A DNA stretch of 52,088 nt from Planctomycetota bacterium. Its GTDB lineage: Bacteria; Planctomycetota; Phycisphaerae; Phycisphaerales; SM1A02. The position numbers and the translations under genes were made by a program. The DNA is taken from contig JAFMML010000017.1 of the NCBI GenBank assembly GCA_017859745.1, forward strand, positions 1-52,088, in the 5' to 3' direction. Shown here piece by piece: positions 37,136 through 48,679 of this stretch. The notes under the pieces are model-generated. The model made no database searches. It had not been told where the DNA came from and saw only the letters and a list, made by a program, of their open reading frames with translations. Each line of letters begins with the position of its first letter. Position 1 is the stretch's first letter.

Positions 37136-38620
37136 ATGGTCGAGACGGAGACTCTCCGAGGTGCGAGTCGAAGGTCCGCGGTGTCGCCGTGGGATCTGCT
37201 TGTCTCGTGGCCCCGCAACCATCCGATCGCGGTGTTGAATCGCGGGGACGGGGCGGATCCCCTGCCCCGTTGGACGCTGGTGACCGCGCCGCTCGATCCC
37301 CGACGCCTTCCGGCGAAGCGCAGCGTCGAAGGAGACTCGGGGGTGGACCCGGCCGTCACCGCATGGCTTGGCGAGCAACTCCCGACGCACTCGTTGGCGG
37401 TGTCCTCGCTTCCCCACGAAGACCGCCCCCCCTGGACGACGGGTCGGCTGGTCCTTCTGGCCTACGAACTCGGCGCCCGCCTCGAGCCCGCCGCGGTCCT
37501 GAGCGACGAGAAGGGATCGACGCCGAGCGGCGTCGCAACCGGGTCGGAATCCGGCGACGCCTGGGACGCCTGGATCGTGGACGTGCCATGGAGTCTGGTG
37601 TTCGATCACCACGACCGATCCTGGCATCGGCATGGCCCGGTGCCGGCGTGGGCCGAGGCATCGCTGGCGGCCGCCACACCGCCGTCGGAGTTTCGGCTCG
37701 GGCCGCTGCAGCCGATCGAGTCGGACCGGTGGTACGAGTCGATCGTCGAGCGTTGCGTCGAACTCGTGCATGCCGGAGACCTCTTTCAAGCCAACCTGTC
37801 CCGGGGATTCGAAGCCGAACTCGACGGCGATCCCCGATCCCTGGCTGCGGCGGTCCTCGCCGGGGCCCCTCGCTTCGGGGCCTACGTCGAGACATCCGCG
37901 AACGAGGCGGTGCTGTCCGCGAGTCCGGAGATGCTTGCGAGCGTCGAACCCGGCGGAGTCGTCCGCTCATGCCCGATCAAGGGCACTCGCACCGCCGACG
38001 CCGATCTGGACGCCTTTGCAGCGAACCCCAAGGACGCTGCGGAGTTGGCCATGATCGTGGACCTCATGCGCAACGATCTCGGTCGGATCTGCCGCGCGGG
38101 ATCGATTCGGGTGGTCGAACCTCGTCGGTTCGAGCGACATCCCACCATCGTCCATGGGGTGGCCGAGATCGAGGGCCGCCTGCGCGACGACGTGACGCCA
38201 TCCTCGATGCTGCAGGCGATCTTCCCCGCCGGCTCGATCAGCGGCGCTCCCAAGATCAGAGCGATGCAGGTGATCGACACCCTCGAATCCGCGAGACGCG
38301 GCATCTACTGCGGAAGCATCGGGTGGTTCGGCATGGAGGGGGGAGCGCTTCTGAACGTCGCGATCCGAACCGCCACCCTCGCTCGCCTCGGAACGTCTGA
38401 TCGATGGCGACTGGCCTACCGGGCGGGCTGCGGCATCGTCGCGGACAGCGATCCGATCGCCGAGGGTCGCGAAAGTCGCGACAAGACCCGAGTGATCGGC
38501 CGACACGCGACCGAGGTCACGCGGCCCGTCGAGTCGCCGGCTCCTGACGCCGCTGCCGCGCCGCGATCGCGCCGATCACCTGCCGACCCACCAGCTTGGC
38601 GTGTTCCGCGTCGGCGGTGA
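37136..38620 (+). CDS. pabB: Aminodeoxychorismate synthase component I (PabB-like)
   Basis: A chorismate-utilising enzyme that, with a glutaminase, makes 4-amino-4-deoxychorismate for folate. The 494-residue protein has the N-terminal beta domain and a C-terminal catalytic domain (about 195-455) with GDLFQANLSRGF, SASPEMLASVE, CPIKGTRT (the Lys that distinguishes PabB from TrpE-type Ala), LMRNDLGRI, GSISGAPKIRAM and YRAGCGIVADSDP. The 35-residue tail after ESRDKTR is low complexity and is the part that overlaps the opposing PilZ-like gene by 104 bases. No pabA or pabC is adjacent. Anthranilate synthase is less likely because of the PIKGT lysine. Confidence 0.9.
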   Translation: MVETETLRGASRRSAVSPWDLLVSWPRNHPIAVLNRGDGADPLPRWTLVTAPLDPRRLPAKRSVEGDSGVDPAVTAWLGEQLPTHSLAVSSLPHEDRPPWTTGRLVLLAYELGARLEPAAVLSDEKGSTPSGVATGSESGDAWDAWIVDVPWSLVFDHHDRSWHRHGPVPAWAEASLAAATPPSEFRLGPLQPIESDRWYESIVERCVELVHAGDLFQANLSRGFEAELDGDPRSLAAAVLAGAPRFGAYVETSANEAVLSASPEMLASVEPGGVVRSCPIKGTRTADADLDAFAANPKDAAELAMIVDLMRNDLGRICRAGSIRVVEPRRFERHPTIVHGVAEIEGRLRDDVTPSSMLQAIFPAGSISGAPKIRAMQVIDTLESARRGIYCGSIGWFGMEGGALLNVAIRTATLARLGTSDRWRLAYRAGCGIVADSDPIAEGRESRDKTRVIGRHATEVTRPVESPAPDAAAAPRSRRSPADPPAWRVPRRR

Positions 38621-39410
38621 AGTCGAAGGCGACGCCGGCGTAGGTCGCCCCGGTGGACTCGAGATGGGTGTGGGCGATTCGGGCGGTGACGCACAGCGGA
38701 AGCGCCGACTCCGGACGGAGATCGATCTCCATCCAGAAGTGGCGATGGCTGGCGATCGCCGCGGCATCCGAGGGCTCCAGACGCAGGCCCGCGCCCCCGC
38801 CGCCGATGTTCATGAGGGTCGCGCCGAACTCCGGACCGAGCGTCGGACGGACCGACTCGTCCTCCCAGGTTCGATCCACCACCCGCTCTCCGCGCCCGAT
38901 CGCTTCGGCGGTGAGGGCGAGCGCCCGCTGGGCGGGGCGAACCGACGCGAGGTCGAGAAGCGGCCAGAGTCGCACCGTGGGCAGAGCGAGACTCGCCGAG
39001 TCCACGCGGAGATGGCGGCGACGGGTTCGCGCGACCTTCTCGGGCATCTCGATCTGGAAGGTCCCGGGGCTCGCGCCGATCGACATCGCATCGACGGACG
39101 CGACGACGCGACTGCGGAACATCCACCGGTTGGGACCGACGACGATCGCCGCCACCACCGTGGTGCCCTCGCGCACCGGCACGGAGCGATGAAGCATCTC
39201 GGGAAGTTCGAGTTCGATGCGATCCTCGCTGGTCGAGGCGATCCGAAGACGCCAGACGAAGTCCGCGGGCAGAGGGCCGGTCGACGGAGGATCACTGGAG
39301 TCGGCGACGTCGCTTGCCGGCGCGATCGCCACCTCGAGAGCCCCGCCGCGGCGGGCAAGTTGTTCGAGATTTCGTCGCCAGTGAAGCGTGCGGGATCGAA
39401 ATGCGGGCAT
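38517..39410 (-). CDS. PilZ-like (YcgR-type) protein
   Basis: The 297-residue protein resembles two-domain PilZ proteins: an N-terminal beta domain (about 45-120, LELPEMLHRSVPVREGTTVVAAIVV) and a second domain opening with an Arg-rich stretch (RTRRRHLRV, matching RxxxR) followed by a G-rich strand LMNIGGGGAGLRLE in place of the D/NxSxxG motif. Both are the cyclic-di-GMP contact points in PilZ. The second motif lacks the Ser, so ligand binding is uncertain. A roughly 40-residue insertion separates the two motifs. The ATG is preceded by GGAG at 6-nt spacing, one of the few clear Shine-Dalgarno sites here. Confidence 0.65.
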   Translation of the reverse strand: MPAFRSRTLHWRRNLEQLARRGGALEVAIAPASDVADSSDPPSTGPLPADFVWRLRIASTSEDRIELELPEMLHRSVPVREGTTVVAAIVVGPNRWMFRSRVVASVDAMSIGASPGTFQIEMPEKVARTRRRHLRVDSASLALPTVRLWPLLDLASVRPAQRALALTAEAIGRGERVVDRTWEDESVRPTLGPEFGATLMNIGGGGAGLRLEPSDAAAIASHRHFWMEIDLRPESALPLCVTARIAHTHLESTGATYAGVAFDFTADAEHAKLVGRQVIGAIAARQRRQEPATRRAA

Positions 39411-39603: not shown

Positions 39604-41853
39604 TCAATGCGGTCGCCGAAGCAGGATCCGGAGCCGCTCGAGGCGTTGCCGGACATCGCCGAGTTGCGTGGTGGTGGGCACCTCGCCGGCGAACCGGCTT
39701 CGGTAGTGCAGGTCGACGATCGGCAGGCTCAACGCCACCGCCTCGGACCAACTTGCACCGAGAGACTGAAGGAACGCCCGGGGCGGCTGCCACGACGCCG
39801 GGGCCAGTCCCGCCCGGTCCCAGAGATCCATCGTCTCGAGATGGACCGAGGCGGCTTCGAGGGAGGCGGCTGGGGCGGACCTGGGCAGCCCGGAGCGCCG
39901 GCGGACCCGTCGACGGCGCCGCAGCACCAGTGCTCCTGCCGCCGCGCCAGCCATCAGAGTCGCCGAGACCGCAAGGAACCACACCGTCGCGGTGCGCCCG
40001 AGACTCAGACGCTGGGCAAGCCTGCTGCGTCCGTCATCGAGCCACGCCGCAACCCGATCGCCCGCACCTTCGAATTCGCGTCCCAGCCGTTCGGCGAGCG
40101 AGGCCTGCACCGCACCGTCGTAGCTGATGACTCGGCTGCTCCAGAACAGTTCGGCGCGGTCGTAGATCCAACGGAATCGATCGAACCAGCCCCGCCCCGA
40201 CGAGGCGATCGACTCGAGGCTCTCGGGGGGAGTGGGATCGATGCTCGACCAGAGGAACCGACCCGTCCTCACCTCCACCCATGCGTGGGCATTGGATTCG
40301 CGCACCAGGTACTGGCGCGTTCCGGGATCCCACTCCATCGCAACGAAGCCGGTGACCAGTCGCGCGTCCACACCCACCGAGCGACAAAGCGCCACCAGCG
40401 CCGACGCGAAGTACTCGCAGTGCCCGAACCGATGCCGCTGGAGAAACGCCACGATCGGATCCTCCCCGTCGAGGCGTATGAAGTCCCGAAGATCCGTGGT
40501 GTAGCGGAACCGAGCGGTGTCCTGAAGCCAGGACGCGAACGCCCGGGAGACGATTCGATTGCGCTCCCAACGGACCTCGGGGTCGGCCCGCGCCTGGTCG
40601 GCGGTCGGCAGTTCGCCGTCGACGAGATCCGAAAGCAGTTCCAAGGCGATCTCGCGGATCTCCGGGATCGGGAACTCCGGCAACGAGGGGACGGCGCCAC
40701 CGCGGCGACCGAGCAGCGGCGCCAACGTCTCGGGGCCCGGGTAGGGCTCGATCTGCACCTCGTAGGACTGGAGGCGACTGACCCGATCCAGGCCGATCTC
40801 CCGCACCACGAGGGTGCGTTCGTCGATCGCGAACGTTCTTCGTTCCTCGGTGTGGACGCCGATCGGAGCGAACGCCGCAAACGCCGTCGCGGTCGACATC
40901 GACCGCATCTCGACCTGCTGCCGATAGGTCTCGCTCCGTGGGCGGACCGAGGGAATCGACAACGGCGTCATCGGAAGATCCTCGCGGACCGTCACCGTCC
41001 GAGCTTGCGACGGCCCTCTCGCCGGGATCCATCGGTTCGAGACGACCTGGTAGCGATCCATGACCGCACCGCGCAGCAGCATCGGCTGGGGGAATCGGAC
41101 CGACTCGCCCTGCCGGTCGATCCAACGCACGCTGAAGACCTCTCGACGACTCTCGGTGATGCGCTCGCCCGAGAAGAGATCGACCTCGTCGACGAAGCCC
41201 GAGACCGGTCCGCCGCCGAAGGGCCTTCGAGGATCCGCATCGAGCCGCCGGGGAAAGACCGCGAACACCACCATCGCGGTCACGGTGGCGCCGGCGAGGG
41301 TGAATCCGACGGTTCGCCGGAGGCTCCGCGTGAATCGGCGTCCCGAAGCCGGACCACCGTCGGCCGCCGATCCGACCGACGCCGAAGCGGCGACCGAGGC
41401 GAGTTCGATCAACATCGCGACTCGCATCACATCCAGTCCGTACGCGACCAGAAGCACCGCGAAGAGCAGATCGATCGTCTCGAGGGTGCCGGAGATGACC
41501 AGCACCGCGGTGAGCGCAAGCAGCTGAGCGTCGTCTCGGGCACCACGGGATTCGTACAGCTTGAGCACCGTCAACCACATGGAGAAGCGGCCGAGGATGC
41601 TCATCGCCTCGCTGGGATCGGGACGGAGGAACCACTCCCAGCAGGCGTTGGCGACGATCACCCCCAGCGTCGCCAGCGACAACCACTTCGGCAGGCGGCG
41701 GCCCCGTGGCCCCTCGGTCACGTACCAGCTGAGGATCGCGAGGCCCGAAGCGAACAGGAACATCCCGAAGGACCGCTGACTGACGCAGAACGCCGCGATC
41801 GCCAGGACCGCGAGGATCAGCACCTCCAGTCGCACTCGTCGGCCGAGACTCAC
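39604..41853 (-). CDS. TgpA-like membrane transglutaminase
   Basis: The 749-residue protein has an N-terminal bundle of about six transmembrane segments (10-200), a periplasmic beta-rich part, and a transglutaminase-like core with Cys479 (FGHCEYFASALV), His523 (ESNAHAWVEV) and Asp539 (SSIDPTPPE). One more transmembrane segment (about 633-655) and a cytoplasmic tail resembling DUF4129 follow. This is the TgpA architecture. The intact triad suggests protease or transglutaminase activity on an envelope target. It starts at GTG 41853, overlapping the DUF58 stop (GTGA). The DUF58-transglutaminase pair is conserved widely; the usual MoxR ATPase is absent here. Confidence 0.9.
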   Translation of the reverse strand: MSLGRRVRLEVLILAVLAIAAFCVSQRSFGMFLFASGLAILSWYVTEGPRGRRLPKWLSLATLGVIVANACWEWFLRPDPSEAMSILGRFSMWLTVLKLYESRGARDDAQLLALTAVLVISGTLETIDLLFAVLLVAYGLDVMRVAMLIELASVAASASVGSAADGGPASGRRFTRSLRRTVGFTLAGATVTAMVVFAVFPRRLDADPRRPFGGGPVSGFVDEVDLFSGERITESRREVFSVRWIDRQGESVRFPQPMLLRGAVMDRYQVVSNRWIPARGPSQARTVTVREDLPMTPLSIPSVRPRSETYRQQVEMRSMSTATAFAAFAPIGVHTEERRTFAIDERTLVVREIGLDRVSRLQSYEVQIEPYPGPETLAPLLGRRGGAVPSLPEFPIPEIREIALELLSDLVDGELPTADQARADPEVRWERNRIVSRAFASWLQDTARFRYTTDLRDFIRLDGEDPIVAFLQRHRFGHCEYFASALVALCRSVGVDARLVTGFVAMEWDPGTRQYLVRESNAHAWVEVRTGRFLWSSIDPTPPESLESIASSGRGWFDRFRWIYDRAELFWSSRVISYDGAVQASLAERLGREFEGAGDRVAAWLDDGRSRLAQRLSLGRTATVWFLAVSATLMAGAAAGALVLRRRRRVRRRSGLPRSAPAASLEAASVHLETMDLWDRAGLAPASWQPPRAFLQSLGASWSEAVALSLPIVDLHYRSRFAGEVPTTTQLGDVRQRLERLRILLRRPH

Positions 41854-43025
41854 GTCGTCCCCGCCTCCGCATCGGCGACGAAGGCGTCGAGCCGCCCGCT
41901 GCCGAACCTCCAGGATCGCTCCGTGGCATCCAGCGTGGTCGCCTCGCCGGGCTCCACGACCACCCGAACCTCCCGCACATTGGAGGAGGCGCCGGCGGCA
42001 ACCCTCGTTCGCGGGGCCGTCAGATCGATGCGGGCGAGGGCGTCCATGATCCGTTCGAGCACGCGACGTCCCGACCGTGGTTCGATCCGCCTCGCCTCGA
42101 CGCCCACGATCTCCAGCCCGGTCTCGAAGCCCAGTTCGCCGGCCGCGGACGCGATCGATGCCACGAGTTCGATCGCCCGCTCCTCGGCGTCGCGGGCGTC
42201 CTCCCCGGCGCGGGTGCGGATCTCCTCCGGCCGGCGTCCGAGATCGAGGACCAGACGAAGTCGCGGCGGCCCGCCCGAACTCCGTTCGACGACCGCCAGA
42301 CGACTGGTTCCGGCGAGTCGCTTCCAGGCGAGGCGGCGAAGACTGTCGCCCGGGCGGTACTCGCGCACGCCGAGAAACTCGCCACCGGCGCCGGCCCGCC
42401 GACCGAGGTCGGAGATGCCCTCGGCTCGTCCCCGCAACGCGTCGAGAAGATCGCGGCGCAGCGGATGCACCTTCGGATGAACGAGGAGCGTCGCGGGCAG
42501 TTCATGGCGAAGCACCTTCTCCAGCAGACCGAACGGGAATCGGGTCGAAACCGCCACCTCGCGAAGACGCACGGCGCCGCGGCGACGGGGCTCGATCCAC
42601 GCCTCCGCCCGAACCGACTCGCCCGGGGGGATCTGCATCACGTGGGCCTGCGGCGTCTCGAGACCGTGTTCCCAACCGTCCATCTTCCCGACGGGATGCT
42701 CCCTGATCCACAGGGCGAACGCGCTCCAGAATCGGGAGCGGTTGGTCAGTTCGTAGCGAAGACGCGACGTCCGGCCCGCGATCGCGGTGCCCACGTCGAC
42801 GCGGCGAACCTCCAGTCGCATCAGCATGAATCCCGAGACCACGCCGGAGACCAGGATCGCTCCGAGCATCACCCCGAAGATCCAGACCAGCAGGTTGTTC
42901 GGCCGGGTGGCCGCGGCGACGCCGAGCAGCAGCGTCATGGCGAGATAGAGCAGACCCGCGAACCGGATGCGATACCGGTAGCGGATGCGCGTCCGGCCGA
43001 CTGGACGTCGCATCTTCTCAGGCAT
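41850..43025 (-). CDS. DUF58 domain-containing membrane protein
   Basis: The 391-residue protein has two N-terminal transmembrane segments (about 24-40 and 46-68), a beta-sandwich region with TRFPFGLLEK, and the DUF58 block GGEFLGVREYRPGDSLRRLAWK, followed by a von Willebrand A-like fold (RLVLDLG). DUF58 proteins are usually encoded with a MoxR ATPase and a TgpA-like transglutaminase. The stop overlaps the transglutaminase start, and the gene begins 21 bases after the preceding lipoprotein. An ATG four codons in (43013) is an alternative start. Confidence 0.88.
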   Translation of the reverse strand: MPEKMRRPVGRTRIRYRYRIRFAGLLYLAMTLLLGVAAATRPNNLLVWIFGVMLGAILVSGVVSGFMLMRLEVRRVDVGTAIAGRTSRLRYELTNRSRFWSAFALWIREHPVGKMDGWEHGLETPQAHVMQIPPGESVRAEAWIEPRRRGAVRLREVAVSTRFPFGLLEKVLRHELPATLLVHPKVHPLRRDLLDALRGRAEGISDLGRRAGAGGEFLGVREYRPGDSLRRLAWKRLAGTSRLAVVERSSGGPPRLRLVLDLGRRPEEIRTRAGEDARDAEERAIELVASIASAAGELGFETGLEIVGVEARRIEPRSGRRVLERIMDALARIDLTAPRTRVAAGASSNVREVRVVVEPGEATTLDATERSWRFGSGRLDAFVADAEAGTT

Positions 43026-43046
43026 CCGATCGGCGCGTGTCGGGAG

Positions 43047-43553
43047 TCACGGAGTGGACCATCGCTCGACCTCGTCGTAGAGATCCTCGCGACCACCGCC
43101 CCGCCGCTGGAGGTCGTCGATCTCGGAGGGATCGGCCTCGCGCAGTTCGATCAGCAGGACCTCGCCGGCACCCGGTCGCGGCATCCGCACCAGCCCCTCC
43201 GCAAGACCGATCCGGGATCGCACCGCCTGCACTCGCCACTCCTCGTCGAGCCAGCCCGCACCGAACTCCGCCAGCGGAATGACGAAGTCCCCATCGGCTT
43301 CGGAGACCCCGGTGGCGACCTGCCGGGCGTTGAGACGTCCAGGATCCCTCACGATGGTGATCCGGGCATTGCCGACGCCTTCGGCGCGCAGCCGGGGGTC
43401 GCCCTCGTCCACGACGGCGACGAGACCGCCGAACGAGCCGCTGACCACCCGGCCGCGAACCTCGTATCCGGCGCAGCCCGACAGGATCCAGCCGAGACCG
43501 CCCACGGCCAGCAGCAGGCGGAATCGAAGGATCGATCGAATGAGCGTCTGCAT
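43047..43553 (-). CDS. Lipoprotein with carboxypeptidase-regulatory-like domain
   Basis: The 168-residue lipoprotein has signal LLLAVGGLGWILSGC (Cys27). The mature domain shows a beta pattern YEVRGRVV, NARITIVRDPG, GVSEADGDFVIPLAE typical of transthyretin-like/carboxypeptidase-regulatory domains, often a surface-binding module. It is followed within 21 bases by DUF58 and the transglutaminase, so it is probably part of that system. Its ATG sits 8 nt after TACGCT with the TTCCCGTC string, which makes it the likely head of the lipoprotein-DUF58-transglutaminase transcript. Longer in-frame versions starting upstream are not signal-like. Confidence 0.7.
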   Translation of the reverse strand: MQTLIRSILRFRLLLAVGGLGWILSGCAGYEVRGRVVSGSFGGLVAVVDEGDPRLRAEGVGNARITIVRDPGRLNARQVATGVSEADGDFVIPLAEFGAGWLDEEWRVQAVRSRIGLAEGLVRMPRPGAGEVLLIELREADPSEIDDLQRRGGGREDLYDEVERWSTP

Positions 43554-43567
43554 GGACGGGAAGCGTA
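43554..43567 (-). promoter_or_regulatory. Leaderless-type -10 element of the lipoprotein-DUF58-transglutaminase unit
   Basis: On the minus strand TACGCT (43562-43567), eight nt (TCCCGTCC), ATG at 43553. Confidence 0.5.
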
Positions 43568-43627
43568 GCCGCCCCGCCCGCTGCAGATGACCCGCGGATC
43601 GCGGGTCGCGACATCCACCTGCGAGAG

Positions 43628-43861
43628 TCAACCCGCCGAGGAGCCGAGCGACTGCCACAGCCAGGCGACGACTGCCGCGAGTCCCACGAGCAGGCAACCC
43701 GCGGCGGCGAGCCATCCAAGCACCCGAAGCGTCACCGAGATGCCGTGGACGCGGCCACGGGTCTCCAGCACCCTGCGGACGCCGGCTTCGTCCGAATCGG
43801 TCCGGCCATCGCCGGCGGTCGCGTCGACGGGAGGAGAGGGCGATCTCGGCTCGACGGTCAT
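43628..43861 (-). CDS. Small single-pass membrane protein
   Basis: A 77-residue protein with an acidic N-terminus (about 25 residues), a short basic stretch (RRVLETRGRVHG) and one C-terminal transmembrane segment (VLGWLAAAGCLLVGLAAVVAWLW). It starts 4 bases after the stop of the unassigned 434-residue gene, so the two are surely co-transcribed. It lies 74 bases before the lipoprotein. A longer frame to 44068 would overlap the upstream gene and is rejected. The function is unknown. Confidence 0.65.
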   Translation of the reverse strand: MTVEPRSPSPPVDATAGDGRTDSDEAGVRRVLETRGRVHGISVTLRVLGWLAAAGCLLVGLAAVVAWLWQSLGSSAG

Positions 43862-43865
43862 GAGT

Positions 43866-45170
43866 TCATTCCACGGAACCGGTGGGGGCGACCGAAGGTC
43901 CGGTTCCCAGCAGGTTCGAAAGCGGCCCGGCATCCTCCGGACCGTGGACCGCACCGTCGAGTTCGATCCGCCAGTCGACGACCTGTCCACGGGCGACGAG
44001 GCGCTCCGATTCGCCCGCGGCAGGCCGGCCTGCGAGATCGAGCGGCTGCACGGACCACCCGGAACCAAGCGACTGGGTCACGACGCCCCAGAAGCCCTCC
44101 GAGCCGTGGTCCCCTGCCGCAAGCTGCACCTTCACATCGGGGCTCGCGACAAGCGCCGCGTCGACGAGATCGAGGCGCCTCTGGGCGAGTCGCTGCTGCC
44201 GAGCCGCAGCTCGCGGGCTGCGATGGACCGCGGCGCCGTCGATCAACGCCCGAAGCACCTCGATCGGAGCCGTCCAGATCCGTCGGTAGCTTCCGCGGGG
44301 CTGCGCTCCGCAGACGACCAGCGCATCGATCAGACCACCGGCGCCGGGAGGGACCTCTCCTCCGCGATGCCGTCGGGACCCGGCGGATCGCTCGTCGATC
44401 GTCTCGATCACCTCGTCGAGCGTTCGCGCCGACACCTCGAGCGACGGCCCCACCACCCACGCGCGATCTCGCGGCGGCGGCGTCACGCACGCGAGTCCCG
44501 ACAGGCCGTCGAGCAGCGCTGCGCCGACGTCCGCAAGTTCCTCGGGCACCTCGAGCATCTCGAGTTCGGGCAGACCGAGGCGGGCAAGGCCTTCCGTCGT
44601 CAACCAGACGCCTCGCCCCCCTTCGCGCCGGGTGGCCCGAATGCTCCAGAGGATCTCGTCGGGAAGCTGCAAGGCATCGGCCCCGTCGGATTCCGCATCC
44701 TTCGGCTCGCTCCACGACGACAGATGCTCCCGCTCGAACCAGCGACCGGTCGCCGGATCGAGCATCGGGCCGGGGCCACCGAGCGACTCGAGGAGCCGCG
44801 CCATCTCGAGCCATTCCTGCCAGGGATCGCCCCGGCCCGCGGGCGAGAGCAGCGTCTCCAATCCGAAGACGGCCTTGGCGGTGCCGACCTCCTCGGGAGC
44901 CCCGGGCATCGCCCGCGGGTCCGGACTCTCGATCCAGACCAGGCGTGTGGGGCGGTCGCGCCGATCGGAATGGATCGCCGCCGCCCAACGCACCGGATCC
45001 TCGATCGGCAACGAATCGACGGTCACCGGCCCGAGAAGAGCCTGAATCCGATCCAGGGTCGGCGGGGATGGCCGAGCAGACCAGAGCAACAGACGACTCG
45101 GCTCGACCGACCTGATCCAGCCGGTCGAGTCCGCTCCGTCTCCACATGCCGATGGTTCGGTGATGTGCAA
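43866..45170 (-). CDS. Unassigned 434-residue soluble protein
   Basis: I do not recognise this protein with confidence. It is soluble, alpha/beta, with segments RLVWIESPDPRAMPGAPEEVGTAK, a GVWLTTEGLARLGLPELEML block that recalls proteins with DUF2314/DUF4026-type domains, and a basic helix (RAAARQQRLAQRRLDLVDAAL). No signal peptide or catalytic motif is visible. No ATG fits; TTG 45170 is used because it follows a GGAGG (11-nt spacing) and starts where codon use becomes coding-like. TAGGGT upstream is a weak -10. Its close link to the small membrane protein suggests a shared role with the downstream transglutaminase cluster. Confidence 0.55.
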   Translation of the reverse strand: MHITEPSACGDGADSTGWIRSVEPSRLLLWSARPSPPTLDRIQALLGPVTVDSLPIEDPVRWAAAIHSDRRDRPTRLVWIESPDPRAMPGAPEEVGTAKAVFGLETLLSPAGRGDPWQEWLEMARLLESLGGPGPMLDPATGRWFEREHLSSWSEPKDAESDGADALQLPDEILWSIRATRREGGRGVWLTTEGLARLGLPELEMLEVPEELADVGAALLDGLSGLACVTPPPRDRAWVVGPSLEVSARTLDEVIETIDERSAGSRRHRGGEVPPGAGGLIDALVVCGAQPRGSYRRIWTAPIEVLRALIDGAAVHRSPRAAARQQRLAQRRLDLVDAALVASPDVKVQLAAGDHGSEGFWGVVTQSLGSGWSVQPLDLAGRPAAGESERLVARGQVVDWRIELDGAVHGPEDAGPLSNLLGTGPSVAPTGSVE

Positions 45171-47008: not shown

Positions 47009-48472
47009 TCAGGAACCTCGCGTCCATCGACGCGGCGGCGCCGAGCCCGAATCCGGACCGGCCGATCCGGCCGATTGGCGATTGGCCTCGATGAGGCTCC
47101 GAATCGTCGCATCGTCGAGACGTTGCGGATGCCCCTGCCAGCGCACGACGCCGTCGCCGGAGACGATCGCGATGTGCGGGATCGCCGTGACCGCGAAGGC
47201 GCTCTTGACCCGGGCCTGCGGATCGCTGGCGATCGCGTAGCCGAAGTCCTCGGTCTTCATGTTGCGCTTCCGAAGTCCGTTGTCGTAGTTGCGACGACTC
47301 TCGTCGGTCAATCCGACCACGCAGACGTCCTGCGGATACGCCCGCGCCAGGGATCGAAGATGCGGGACCGATGCGATGCAGGGACCGCACCAGGTGGCGA
47401 AGAAGTCGATGACCAGCAGCCGCCCGTTCGGCGCATCGGCATCGCTCATCCACCGATCCACCACGAACGGTGGGGCCGCCTTTCCGCGGAGATCCCGCGC
47501 TCGCCCCACCGAGCCGGTGAAGGTCGGGAACGCCGCGGCGTCGTCGGCCACGGCCTCCGGCTGGTCGCGCACCGCCGCGGGCACCTCCGGGTCGTAGGAC
47601 TCGGCGGCGAGGACCTTGGCCGCCGCCGCGGCACCGTCGGCGGTGAGGCCTGCGTAGCGGACGTTCCCCTGTCGGTCGATCAACAGATTCGTCGGTCGCT
47701 TGTAGAAGCCGAACGCGTCGGCGACACGACCGGTCGAATCCACCAGCACCGGGTACGGGACCGGCTGCCTCTCGAGCACCTTCGGTGCGTGCTCGGCGCC
47801 CTCGGGGATGTGCACGAGAAGCACGGCGAGATCCTCGACCTGCGCCGCCTCGAGCGCTCGGGCGAGGCGTTCCGCGATGCGCACGCCGTTCATTCGACTC
47901 GTGAACGACTGCACGATCACCGGGCGACCCCGCCAATCCGACAGCGATTGCGGGCCTCGACCGATCCATGCGACGCCATCGACACCCTGCCAGGACGGTG
48001 CGACGTAGCCGAGCAGCGGCTCGAGGGCGGTGCGATCATCGCGGTCGAGTCGATCGACCCAGTCCCTCGGCGGAGCGTCGAAGGCCGCTCGAGTGCGGCT
48101 GGAGGAGGAGTTGCTCGAGGAGGACCGGTCGCGGGACGAGTCGCGAGATGAGGAACGATCGGAGTCGGACTGGCCCGAGCGGGACGACGACCGGTCCGAG
48201 TCGGAACTGCGCGAGGAGGAGGAGTCGGAGTCGGACTGTCGCGACGAAGAGGAGTCCGAGGAGGAGTTGCTCGACGACGAGCGATCCGAATCCGAACTGC
48301 TGGACGAGGACTGCTTCGACGAAGACTTCGAGGAAGAGCTCGATGAGGACTGTTTAGAGGAGGACTGGTTCGAATCCGAACCCGACTGGCCGTGGGCCGG
48401 ACCGGTGCCGAGTGCAAGACCGAGGCCGAGGATGCCCGCGGTGGCCAGGCGGATGGCGATGCTGGTGCTCAT
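47009..48472 (-). CDS. Tandem thioredoxin-fold protein with serine-rich linker
   Basis: The 487-residue exported protein has a signal peptide (1-28, GLALGTGPAHG), a serine/aspartate/arginine-rich linker (30-126), and two thioredoxin-like domains. The first (about 150-290) lacks the redox cysteines: the motif position reads SRMN, although the remaining fold (PYPVLVDSTGRVADAFG, PTNLLIDRQGNVRYAGL) is intact. The second (about 325-470) has WCGPC (361-365) and AIPHIAIV, as in TlpA/ResA-like proteins. It could act in thiol-disulfide chemistry outside the cytoplasm. ATG 48472 is preceded by AGGAG at 9-nt spacing. Confidence 0.85.
   Translation of the reverse strand: MSTSIAIRLATAGILGLGLALGTGPAHGQSGSDSNQSSSKQSSSSSSSKSSSKQSSSSSSDSDRSSSSNSSSDSSSSRQSDSDSSSSRSSDSDRSSSRSGQSDSDRSSSRDSSRDRSSSSNSSSSRTRAAFDAPPRDWVDRLDRDDRTALEPLLGYVAPSWQGVDGVAWIGRGPQSLSDWRGRPVIVQSFTSRMNGVRIAERLARALEAAQVEDLAVLLVHIPEGAEHAPKVLERQPVPYPVLVDSTGRVADAFGFYKRPTNLLIDRQGNVRYAGLTADGAAAAAKVLAAESYDPEVPAAVRDQPEAVADDAAAFPTFTGSVGRARDLRGKAAPPFVVDRWMSDADAPNGRLLVIDFFATWCGPCIASVPHLRSLARAYPQDVCVVGLTDESRRNYDNGLRKRNMKTEDFGYAIASDPQARVKSAFAVTAIPHIAIVSGDGVVRWQGHPQRLDDATIRSLIEANRQSAGSAGPDSGSAPPRRWTRGS
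48095..48385. repeat. Serine-rich low-complexity coding region
   Basis: Repeats of Ser-Ser-Ser/Asp-Arg codons encode residues 30-126 of the tandem thioredoxin protein. The opposite strand reads as an acidic ORF, which is only a shadow. Confidence 0.8.
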
Positions 48473-48679
48473 GGCTGGTTGCTCCTGGTCGATCTCGTCT
48501 TCGGGCGTTCGGGAAGTTGGGCGTTCGGGAAGTTGGACTTTCGGGATTGCCTTCAGGACTGCCGTCGGGTCTGCCGCCGACCCGGAACGCGTCGAGGCCG
48601 ACTCCTGCTGCTCTCGTTCCACGTTTCGATCCGACGGTTGCGGAGACCCGCTCCTGCACCGCGATTCGGCCGTGTCCAT

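Follow-up and report, generated by a model that had tools for sequence, protein, structure and literature searches.

The window analysed here is a stretch of 52,088 nucleotides, contig C14 (JAFMML010000017.1) of the Planctomycetota bacterium genome G000 (order Phycisphaerales; 3.24 Mb, 96.96% complete, 147 contigs), and it carries a cluster built around a DUF58 gene and a gene for the transglutaminase-like membrane protein TgpA. A sequence-only reading of this cluster had observed that the MoxR ATPase gene that normally travels with DUF58 and TgpA was missing, and had proposed that the soluble protein among three upstream gene products might replace it, or that the set formed an envelope-modifying system with a lipoprotein substrate. 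The five open reading frames were confirmed on the minus strand at the places and with the gaps given by that reading (4, 74, 21 and −4 bases); their positions are listed in Table 1. Of a MoxR-DUF58-TgpA envelope system, the window probably encodes two arms, DUF58 and TgpA, the MoxR arm being encoded at a distant site in the same genome, on contig C121, near groEL.

The TgpA protein matches both TgpA_N (89.9 bits, against a cut-off of 30) and Transglut_core (63.5 bits, cut-off 23), and its hydropathy profile shows membrane segments at the N terminus, then a long loop and a single further transmembrane segment. Residues 462–547 match by sequence a solved structure, 6g49 (2.3e-10), which we take to be the P. 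aeruginosa TgpA domain. The catalytic triad had been described as intact, and this holds: C479, H523 and D539 were verified in the sequence, and a loose Cys-His-Asp pattern is found at every TgpA locus examined, in the window as in 40 orthologous stretches (41 of 41). The DUF58 protein (31.8 bits, cut-off 23.4) is encoded directly upstream of tgpA, with an overlap of 4 bases, has two transmembrane segments by hydropathy, and forms one group with the DUF58s of the 40 stretches in a quick tree (Shimodaira–Hasegawa approximate likelihood-ratio test (SH-aLRT) support 95). The loss of its vWA metal site (DxSxS) was considered as a sign of MoxR loss and rejected; TgpA-linked DUF58s with an adjacent MoxR also lack DxSxS (L202, L203, L211 and L240), and the site is degenerate in the TgpA-linked DUF58s examined, whether or not a MoxR adjoins them. 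DxSxS is kept in three of the four MoxR-linked DUF58s of the window's own genome, and the fourth was missed by the pattern. Scans for sigma-70 promoters and terminators gave no signal exceeding shuffled sequence, and a search of NCBIfam gave nothing over a cut-off.

Table 1. Genes of the DUF58-TgpA cluster and its flank, with positions in the window
Feature	Position	Strand	Remark
434-residue soluble protein, DUF4026_C + DUF2314 type	43866..45170	-	TTG start, uncertain
77-residue protein with a single transmembrane segment, like the C-terminal part of DUF2007-like + transmembrane proteins	43628..43861	-	
168-residue predicted lipoprotein, one transthyretin-like / CarboxypepD_reg-like domain	43047..43553	-	LSGC, Cys27
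DUF58 protein, two N-terminal transmembrane segments, degenerate vWA metal site (LDLGRRP)	41850..43025	-	
TgpA: hydrophobic N-terminal membrane segments, transglutaminase core C479/H523/D539, one later transmembrane segment, C-terminal tail	39604..41853	-	
YcgR/PilZ-like protein, just downstream of TgpA	38517..39410	-	outside the gene set of the sequence-only reading

Forty TgpA neighbourhoods were fetched from the family and the order (stretches of 9–20 kb), and 46 stretches were taken around the gene for the 434-residue protein; the sets of 40, 46 and 16 stretches used in this work overlap in genomes. The gene order that recurs in the 40 stretches, in whole or in part, is 434-residue protein, small transmembrane protein, lipoprotein, DUF58, TgpA, PilZ-like protein, pabB (on the opposite strand) and PPDK. 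A single-sequence search found DUF58 in all 40, a PilZ-like ortholog following TgpA in 28, the lipoprotein in 25 and the 434-residue protein in 15. The lack of a MoxR gene beside DUF58-TgpA extends well beyond the window: none was found in the 40 TgpA stretches, searched by tblastn with five of the six MoxRs of the window's genome (all but the C121 MoxR) and with a hidden Markov model that does recognise the sixth, and none in the 46 stretches, 30 of which hold DUF58. Stretches from other families of the order are likewise without an adjacent MoxR. In contrast, 40 TgpA stretches mostly from outside the order, some of which end at contig ends, contain DUF58 in 36 cases and MoxR in 24 of these 36; profiles of the lipoprotein, the 434-residue protein and the PilZ-like protein had no match in these 40 at E 0.001. 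Where both genes were placed, the lipoprotein gene shares the strand of tgpA and is no more than 5 kb away in 37 of 39 genomes of the family and in 31 of 38 from the rest of the order (G012 and G117 are left out of these linkage counts and included in the co-occurrence counts below). Of the set that had been proposed from gene spacing, the lipoprotein-DUF58-TgpA block is conserved; the 434-residue protein as a substitute for MoxR is not supported.

The absence of MoxR from the operon is not equivalent to its absence from the genome. The genome encodes six strong MoxRs and five DUF58s; four of the MoxRs adjoin the four other DUF58s, two are orphans, and the window DUF58 has no MoxR beside it. 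A Bacillus subtilis genome, taken as a control, gave matches to the AAA_3, DUF58 and TgpA_N models. One orphan is encoded at G000:C121:50158-51087, near two groEL genes (AAA_3, 205.9 bits). The other, at G000:C100:7225-8238 (L147), has no DUF58 nearby and is kept in many relatives with or without TgpA. Across 151 genomes, the C121-type MoxR is present in 123 of 128 TgpA-positive genomes versus 3 of 23 TgpA-negative ones, three of the TgpA-less genomes having been scored by elimination (Fisher p 2e-17, a value that overstates independence because the co-losses share ancestry). The ortholog line was set by eye, best hits of at least 276 bits counting as orthologs and those of at most 251 bits as paralogs. 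Among the 123 genomes at least 90% complete, the C121 type is found in 103 of 104 with TgpA and 2 of 19 without. Two of these three exceptions look like assembly cuts: in G001 a contig end truncates the C121-type MoxR, of which 129 residues align at 79.8% identity, and in G148 the contig that carries DUF58 and the adjoining lipoprotein begins at DUF58, the expected place of TgpA lying beyond. The joint absence of MoxR and TgpA spans 12 genera or lineages (a count with no species tree behind it), and one genus holds both states, G043 having neither and G070 and G090 having both.

Three controls were scored in the same genomes. The C100 orphan, for which the ortholog line (best E 1e-121) was drawn by eye and is not sharp because another paralog scores close, occurs in 108/128 TgpA-positive versus 16/23 TgpA-negative genomes (p 0.13), with no clear tracking of TgpA. 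The corresponding counts are 78/128 versus 12/23 for the lipoprotein (Fisher p 0.49) and, within the family, 69/82 versus 7/9 for the 434-residue protein (p 0.64). The presence of TgpA is matched far more closely by that of the unlinked MoxR than by that of the lipoprotein or the 434-residue protein beside it. Because this MoxR is unlinked, neighbourhood cannot explain its co-occurrence with TgpA, and the presence or absence of the two together is therefore independent evidence for a functional bond. A MoxR gene located elsewhere, which the sequence-only reading had named as a finding that would count against its own proposal, is largely what the C121 type provides, and its function is presumably conserved.

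The affinities of the C121 type are consistent with this pairing. In a quick tree of 43 MoxRs, its sequences (12 of the 30 fetched C121-type loci; a larger tree used 6 of the 30) group with 25 of 26 TgpA-linked MoxRs (SH-aLRT 96), to the exclusion of C100 and of the DUF58-linked MoxRs of the same genome. Eleven genomes of other families with DUF58-TgpA and no adjacent MoxR all have a MoxR of 46–52% identity to the query, and in nine of them the best hit has no DUF58 in its surrounding stretch of approximately 3.9 kb. In four genomes of f32, another family of the phylum, and in G312, the unlinked best-hit MoxR groups with the TgpA-linked MoxR of G266 (support 96); the DUF58s of f32, G312 and G266 also form one group (support 85). 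The DUF58 of G303 lies inside it, unlike the MoxR of G303, which falls outside the G266 group. Because the MoxRs were chosen as best matches, it is this partial congruence between MoxR and DUF58, and no more, that is informative. The f32 stretches themselves (L209, L214, L215, L218 and L232) have DUF58-TgpA without an adjacent MoxR, and the best MoxR hits form one group for four of the five genomes.

The 434-residue protein, which had been left unassigned, belongs to a family that appears to be of the DUF4026_C/DUF2314 type. At E ≤ 0.1, DUF4026_C matches 29 of 29 family members, that of the window included (best 9.5e-20), and DUF2314 matches 17 of the same 29 (best 4e-14); the window member reaches 22.8 bits in this test, below the curated cut-off of 27. 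Its start is uncertain because the TTG codon belongs to an open frame that can be as long as 528 codons. The protein has no transmembrane segment by hydropathy. Its model has a predicted local distance difference test (pLDDT) score of 87.7, and no fold is claimed for it because its structural matches all stay under Z 7; sequence searches of the 434-residue and lipoprotein families against solved structures gave no meaningful match. In a study of polymorphic toxins, DUF2314 is described as Imm34 (PMC3482391), and another source describes the DUF2314 domain of PA2504 as Tudor-like (PMC8466066). The window family resembles DUF4026/DUF2314 (Imm34) proteins in these domain matches, but differs from them in having a single match in 74 of the 76 genomes that encode it and in being often linked to leuS. 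All 76 of these genomes, out of the 151, belong to family f1. Of 76 stretches, some of which come from the same genome, 39 have the gene immediately after leuS, and 23 more contain leuS at another place. It shares a contig with the C121-type MoxR gene in 18 of the 66 genomes that have both, always on the same strand and 5–62 kb downstream, and in two of these 18 it is also linked to TgpA. This proximity was considered as a functional link, and is read as positional because the order groEL-MoxR-leuS-434-residue protein recurs and leuS is so often adjacent. Stretches L272–L283 of family genomes show this recurring groEL - MoxR - ... - leuS - 434-residue protein arrangement; groEL and leuS were confirmed by Pfam on L148 and L107.

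The predicted lipoprotein has LSGC, a putative lipobox, at residues 24–27, and its hydrophobic stretch falls below the hydropathy line used. A lipobox was recognised in 22 of 33 relatives, and these were aligned with the window protein; of the rest, ten had none in the stretch searched and one (L167) was a fragment. The lipobox Cys is invariant in this alignment by construction, the sequences having been aligned from it. The model of the mature protein (pLDDT 82.4) best matches 5aq0, a transthyretin-like carboxypeptidase domain (Z 9.0, 81 of 82 residues, root-mean-square deviation 2.6); it also matches 3e8v (Z 8.8), the title of which refers to a possible transglutaminase-family fragment, and a shaft pilin. 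At E ≤ 0.1, CarboxypepD_reg matches 10 of the 23 members (best 2.7e-5) but not the window protein. The earlier label of a carboxypeptidase-regulatory-like protein is supported at the level of the predicted fold, which the mature lipoprotein would share with carboxypeptidase regulatory-like and transthyretin-like domains, although it is, unlike carboxypeptidase regulatory-like proteins, small and stand-alone, with no enzyme domain. In L129 and L130, from order family f2, two large proteins with about 11–12 membrane segments each (by crude hydropathy) are encoded directly upstream of the lipoprotein.

The 77-residue protein has one transmembrane segment by hydropathy and no Pfam match. Its relatives at the same place consist of a DUF2007-like part, a conserved acidic linker and one transmembrane segment, with DUF2007 matching weakly in four of five tested (best 2e-5, all under the cut-off), and the window protein aligns only with the linker and transmembrane part; judged from these alignments, it resembles the membrane part of such DUF2007-like proteins. 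The PilZ-like protein downstream of TgpA scores 19.6 bits with PilZ, against a cut-off of 22.5. PilZ receptors of cyclic di-GMP are recognised by the motifs RxxxR and [DN]xSxxG. RxxxR is kept in all 29 members of the PilZ-like family, whereas the Ser of the second motif is present in two of 29 and is replaced by Gly in 26; because this second motif reads NxGGGG in the window protein, control by cyclic di-GMP is only a suggestion. Elsewhere in the window, positions 47009–48679 encode a protein with a long Ser-rich stretch followed by two AhpC/TSA-Redoxin domains.

Several observations weigh against a distant MoxR partner, and some of them speak for a different reading, in which MoxR has truly been lost as a partner, DUF58-TgpA works alone and the C121 type tracks TgpA through some wider trait lost along with it. 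The third exception among the more complete genomes, G028 (94% complete), is a true one that retains the MoxR but has no TgpA. The g23 genomes G024, G057 and G080 (276–292 bits) overlap in score with second TgpA-linked MoxRs found elsewhere (280–285 bits), and without these three genomes the C121 type is present in 120 of 128 TgpA-positive genomes. Orphan counts in 25 genomes give an unclean hint: TgpA-less G003, G004, G092 and G094 have at most one orphan and most TgpA-bearing genomes have two, but TgpA-less G093, G095 and G097 also have two and G002 has TgpA with one. All the MoxR and DUF58 trees are quick ones; in the larger MoxR tree, six TgpA-linked MoxRs fall outside the group and the branch at its base has a length near zero, so that the border of the group is unsure. 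In the P. aeruginosa tgpA unit, the first two genes, PA2875 and PA2874, presumably encode MoxR and DUF58, respectively. According to PMC3507681, the three genes appear to be co-transcribed, and tgpA is essential while PA2875, the first gene of the unit, would appear to be non-essential. MoxR may therefore tune the system rather than drive it, and may, by analogy, be dispensable for the essential role of TgpA. This, together with the phylogenetic non-independence of the co-losses, favours a loss of MoxR as partner; however, the C100 MoxR, the lipoprotein and the 434-residue protein fail to track TgpA in the same genomes and the C121 type nests among TgpA-linked MoxRs, and such a loss seems unlikely to us.

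The remaining explanations concern the upstream genes. A takeover of the MoxR role by the 434-residue protein was suggested by its position beside the cluster in the window and could draw on its linkage to TgpA in 26 of the 69 family genomes with both genes (of the 43 remaining, 37 have the genes on separate contigs, some of which are short). This protein is nevertheless apparently of the DUF4026_C/DUF2314 kind, lacks a Walker A motif in all 35 members searched, is often a neighbour of leuS instead, and is kept in seven of nine family genomes without TgpA; it is confined to f1, yet other families of the order also lack an adjacent MoxR. DUF58 and TgpA were not found beside its gene in five stretches where the PilZ-like gene follows: in L186, L188, L189 and L190 the 434-residue, lipoprotein and PilZ-like genes remain side by side, and in L193, where the lipoprotein was not found either, only the PilZ-like gene accompanies it. 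We regard this substitution as highly improbable. The lipoprotein could instead be a substrate or dedicated adaptor of TgpA in an envelope-modifying module with DUF58: its linkage across the order is tight, and its predicted transthyretin-like fold, with matches to 3e8v and a shaft pilin, would suit such a role. Cross-linking by TgpA is nonetheless poorly compatible with the absence of Lys from the mature window protein and with an alignment of 23 rows in which no column has Lys in more than eight or Gln in more than four; the lipoprotein is, moreover, present in 12 of the 23 genomes without TgpA and was not found in 50 of 128 with it at the search sensitivity used. Its presence is not associated with that of TgpA. 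A dedicated module of this kind is doubtful. The upstream genes might, finally, be positional passengers that share no function and owe their place to an inherited arrangement near leuS and the DUF58-TgpA-PilZ block. The two addresses of the 434-residue gene (beside lipoprotein-DUF58-TgpA or downstream of the C121-type MoxR), its frequent position behind leuS and the four stretches in which lipoprotein and PilZ-like genes lie side by side without a detected DUF58-TgpA are all in keeping with this, whereas the closeness of the lipoprotein and DUF58-TgpA genes across several of the order's families is not; we consider passenger status for the whole upstream set quite possible, a little short of an even chance.

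In the split arrangement that we prefer, a cytosolic ring of the AAA+ protein MoxR, supplied in trans, would bind and remodel the membrane-anchored DUF58 protein, which would in turn control TgpA; the Cys-His-Asp transglutaminase-like domain of TgpA, expected to be periplasmic, would then have an envelope protein or glycan as its target. The lipoprotein with its transthyretin-like fold, a neighbour across the order, would perhaps be an accessory or have a separate function, and the 77-residue and 434-residue proteins would be mainly inherited neighbours. We infer the physical interaction of MoxR, DUF58 and TgpA, the membrane topology, the substrate and any role of PilZ in this scheme. Co-occurrence names the exact MoxR, the C121 type, to pair with the window DUF58. 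More widely, and more tentatively, DUF58-TgpA without an adjacent MoxR in Planctomycetota may co-evolve with a MoxR of the TgpA subfamily encoded elsewhere, as an obligate and genetically split trio, the DUF58-TgpA arm of which is accompanied in Phycisphaerales by a transthyretin-like lipoprotein and a YcgR/PilZ-like regulator and is maybe under the control of a nucleotide signal.

To our knowledge, the support for MoxR as a functional partner of DUF58-TgpA comes mostly from gene neighbourhood. No report of a split between MoxR and DUF58-TgpA was found among the papers listed from the open literature searched, or in passages of PMC7159879 and PMC4858521. In Shewanella baltica, the MoxR, DUF58 and DUF3488/transglutaminase genes of pSbal01 adjoin. 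The window TgpA resembles that of the P. aeruginosa PA2875-PA2874-tgpA unit in combining TgpA_N with a transglutaminase domain, but the window has a two-gene core with other neighbours in place of a three-gene unit. The set is best read as a split variant of the known system, and a replacement for MoxR is not supported. It shares with the MoxR-DUF58-TgpA operon a DUF58 gene followed by a TgpA gene with an intact triad, and a MoxR of the matching subfamily in the same genome; it differs in that this MoxR is encoded elsewhere, while a lipoprotein gene lies upstream of the core and a YcgR/PilZ-like gene downstream.

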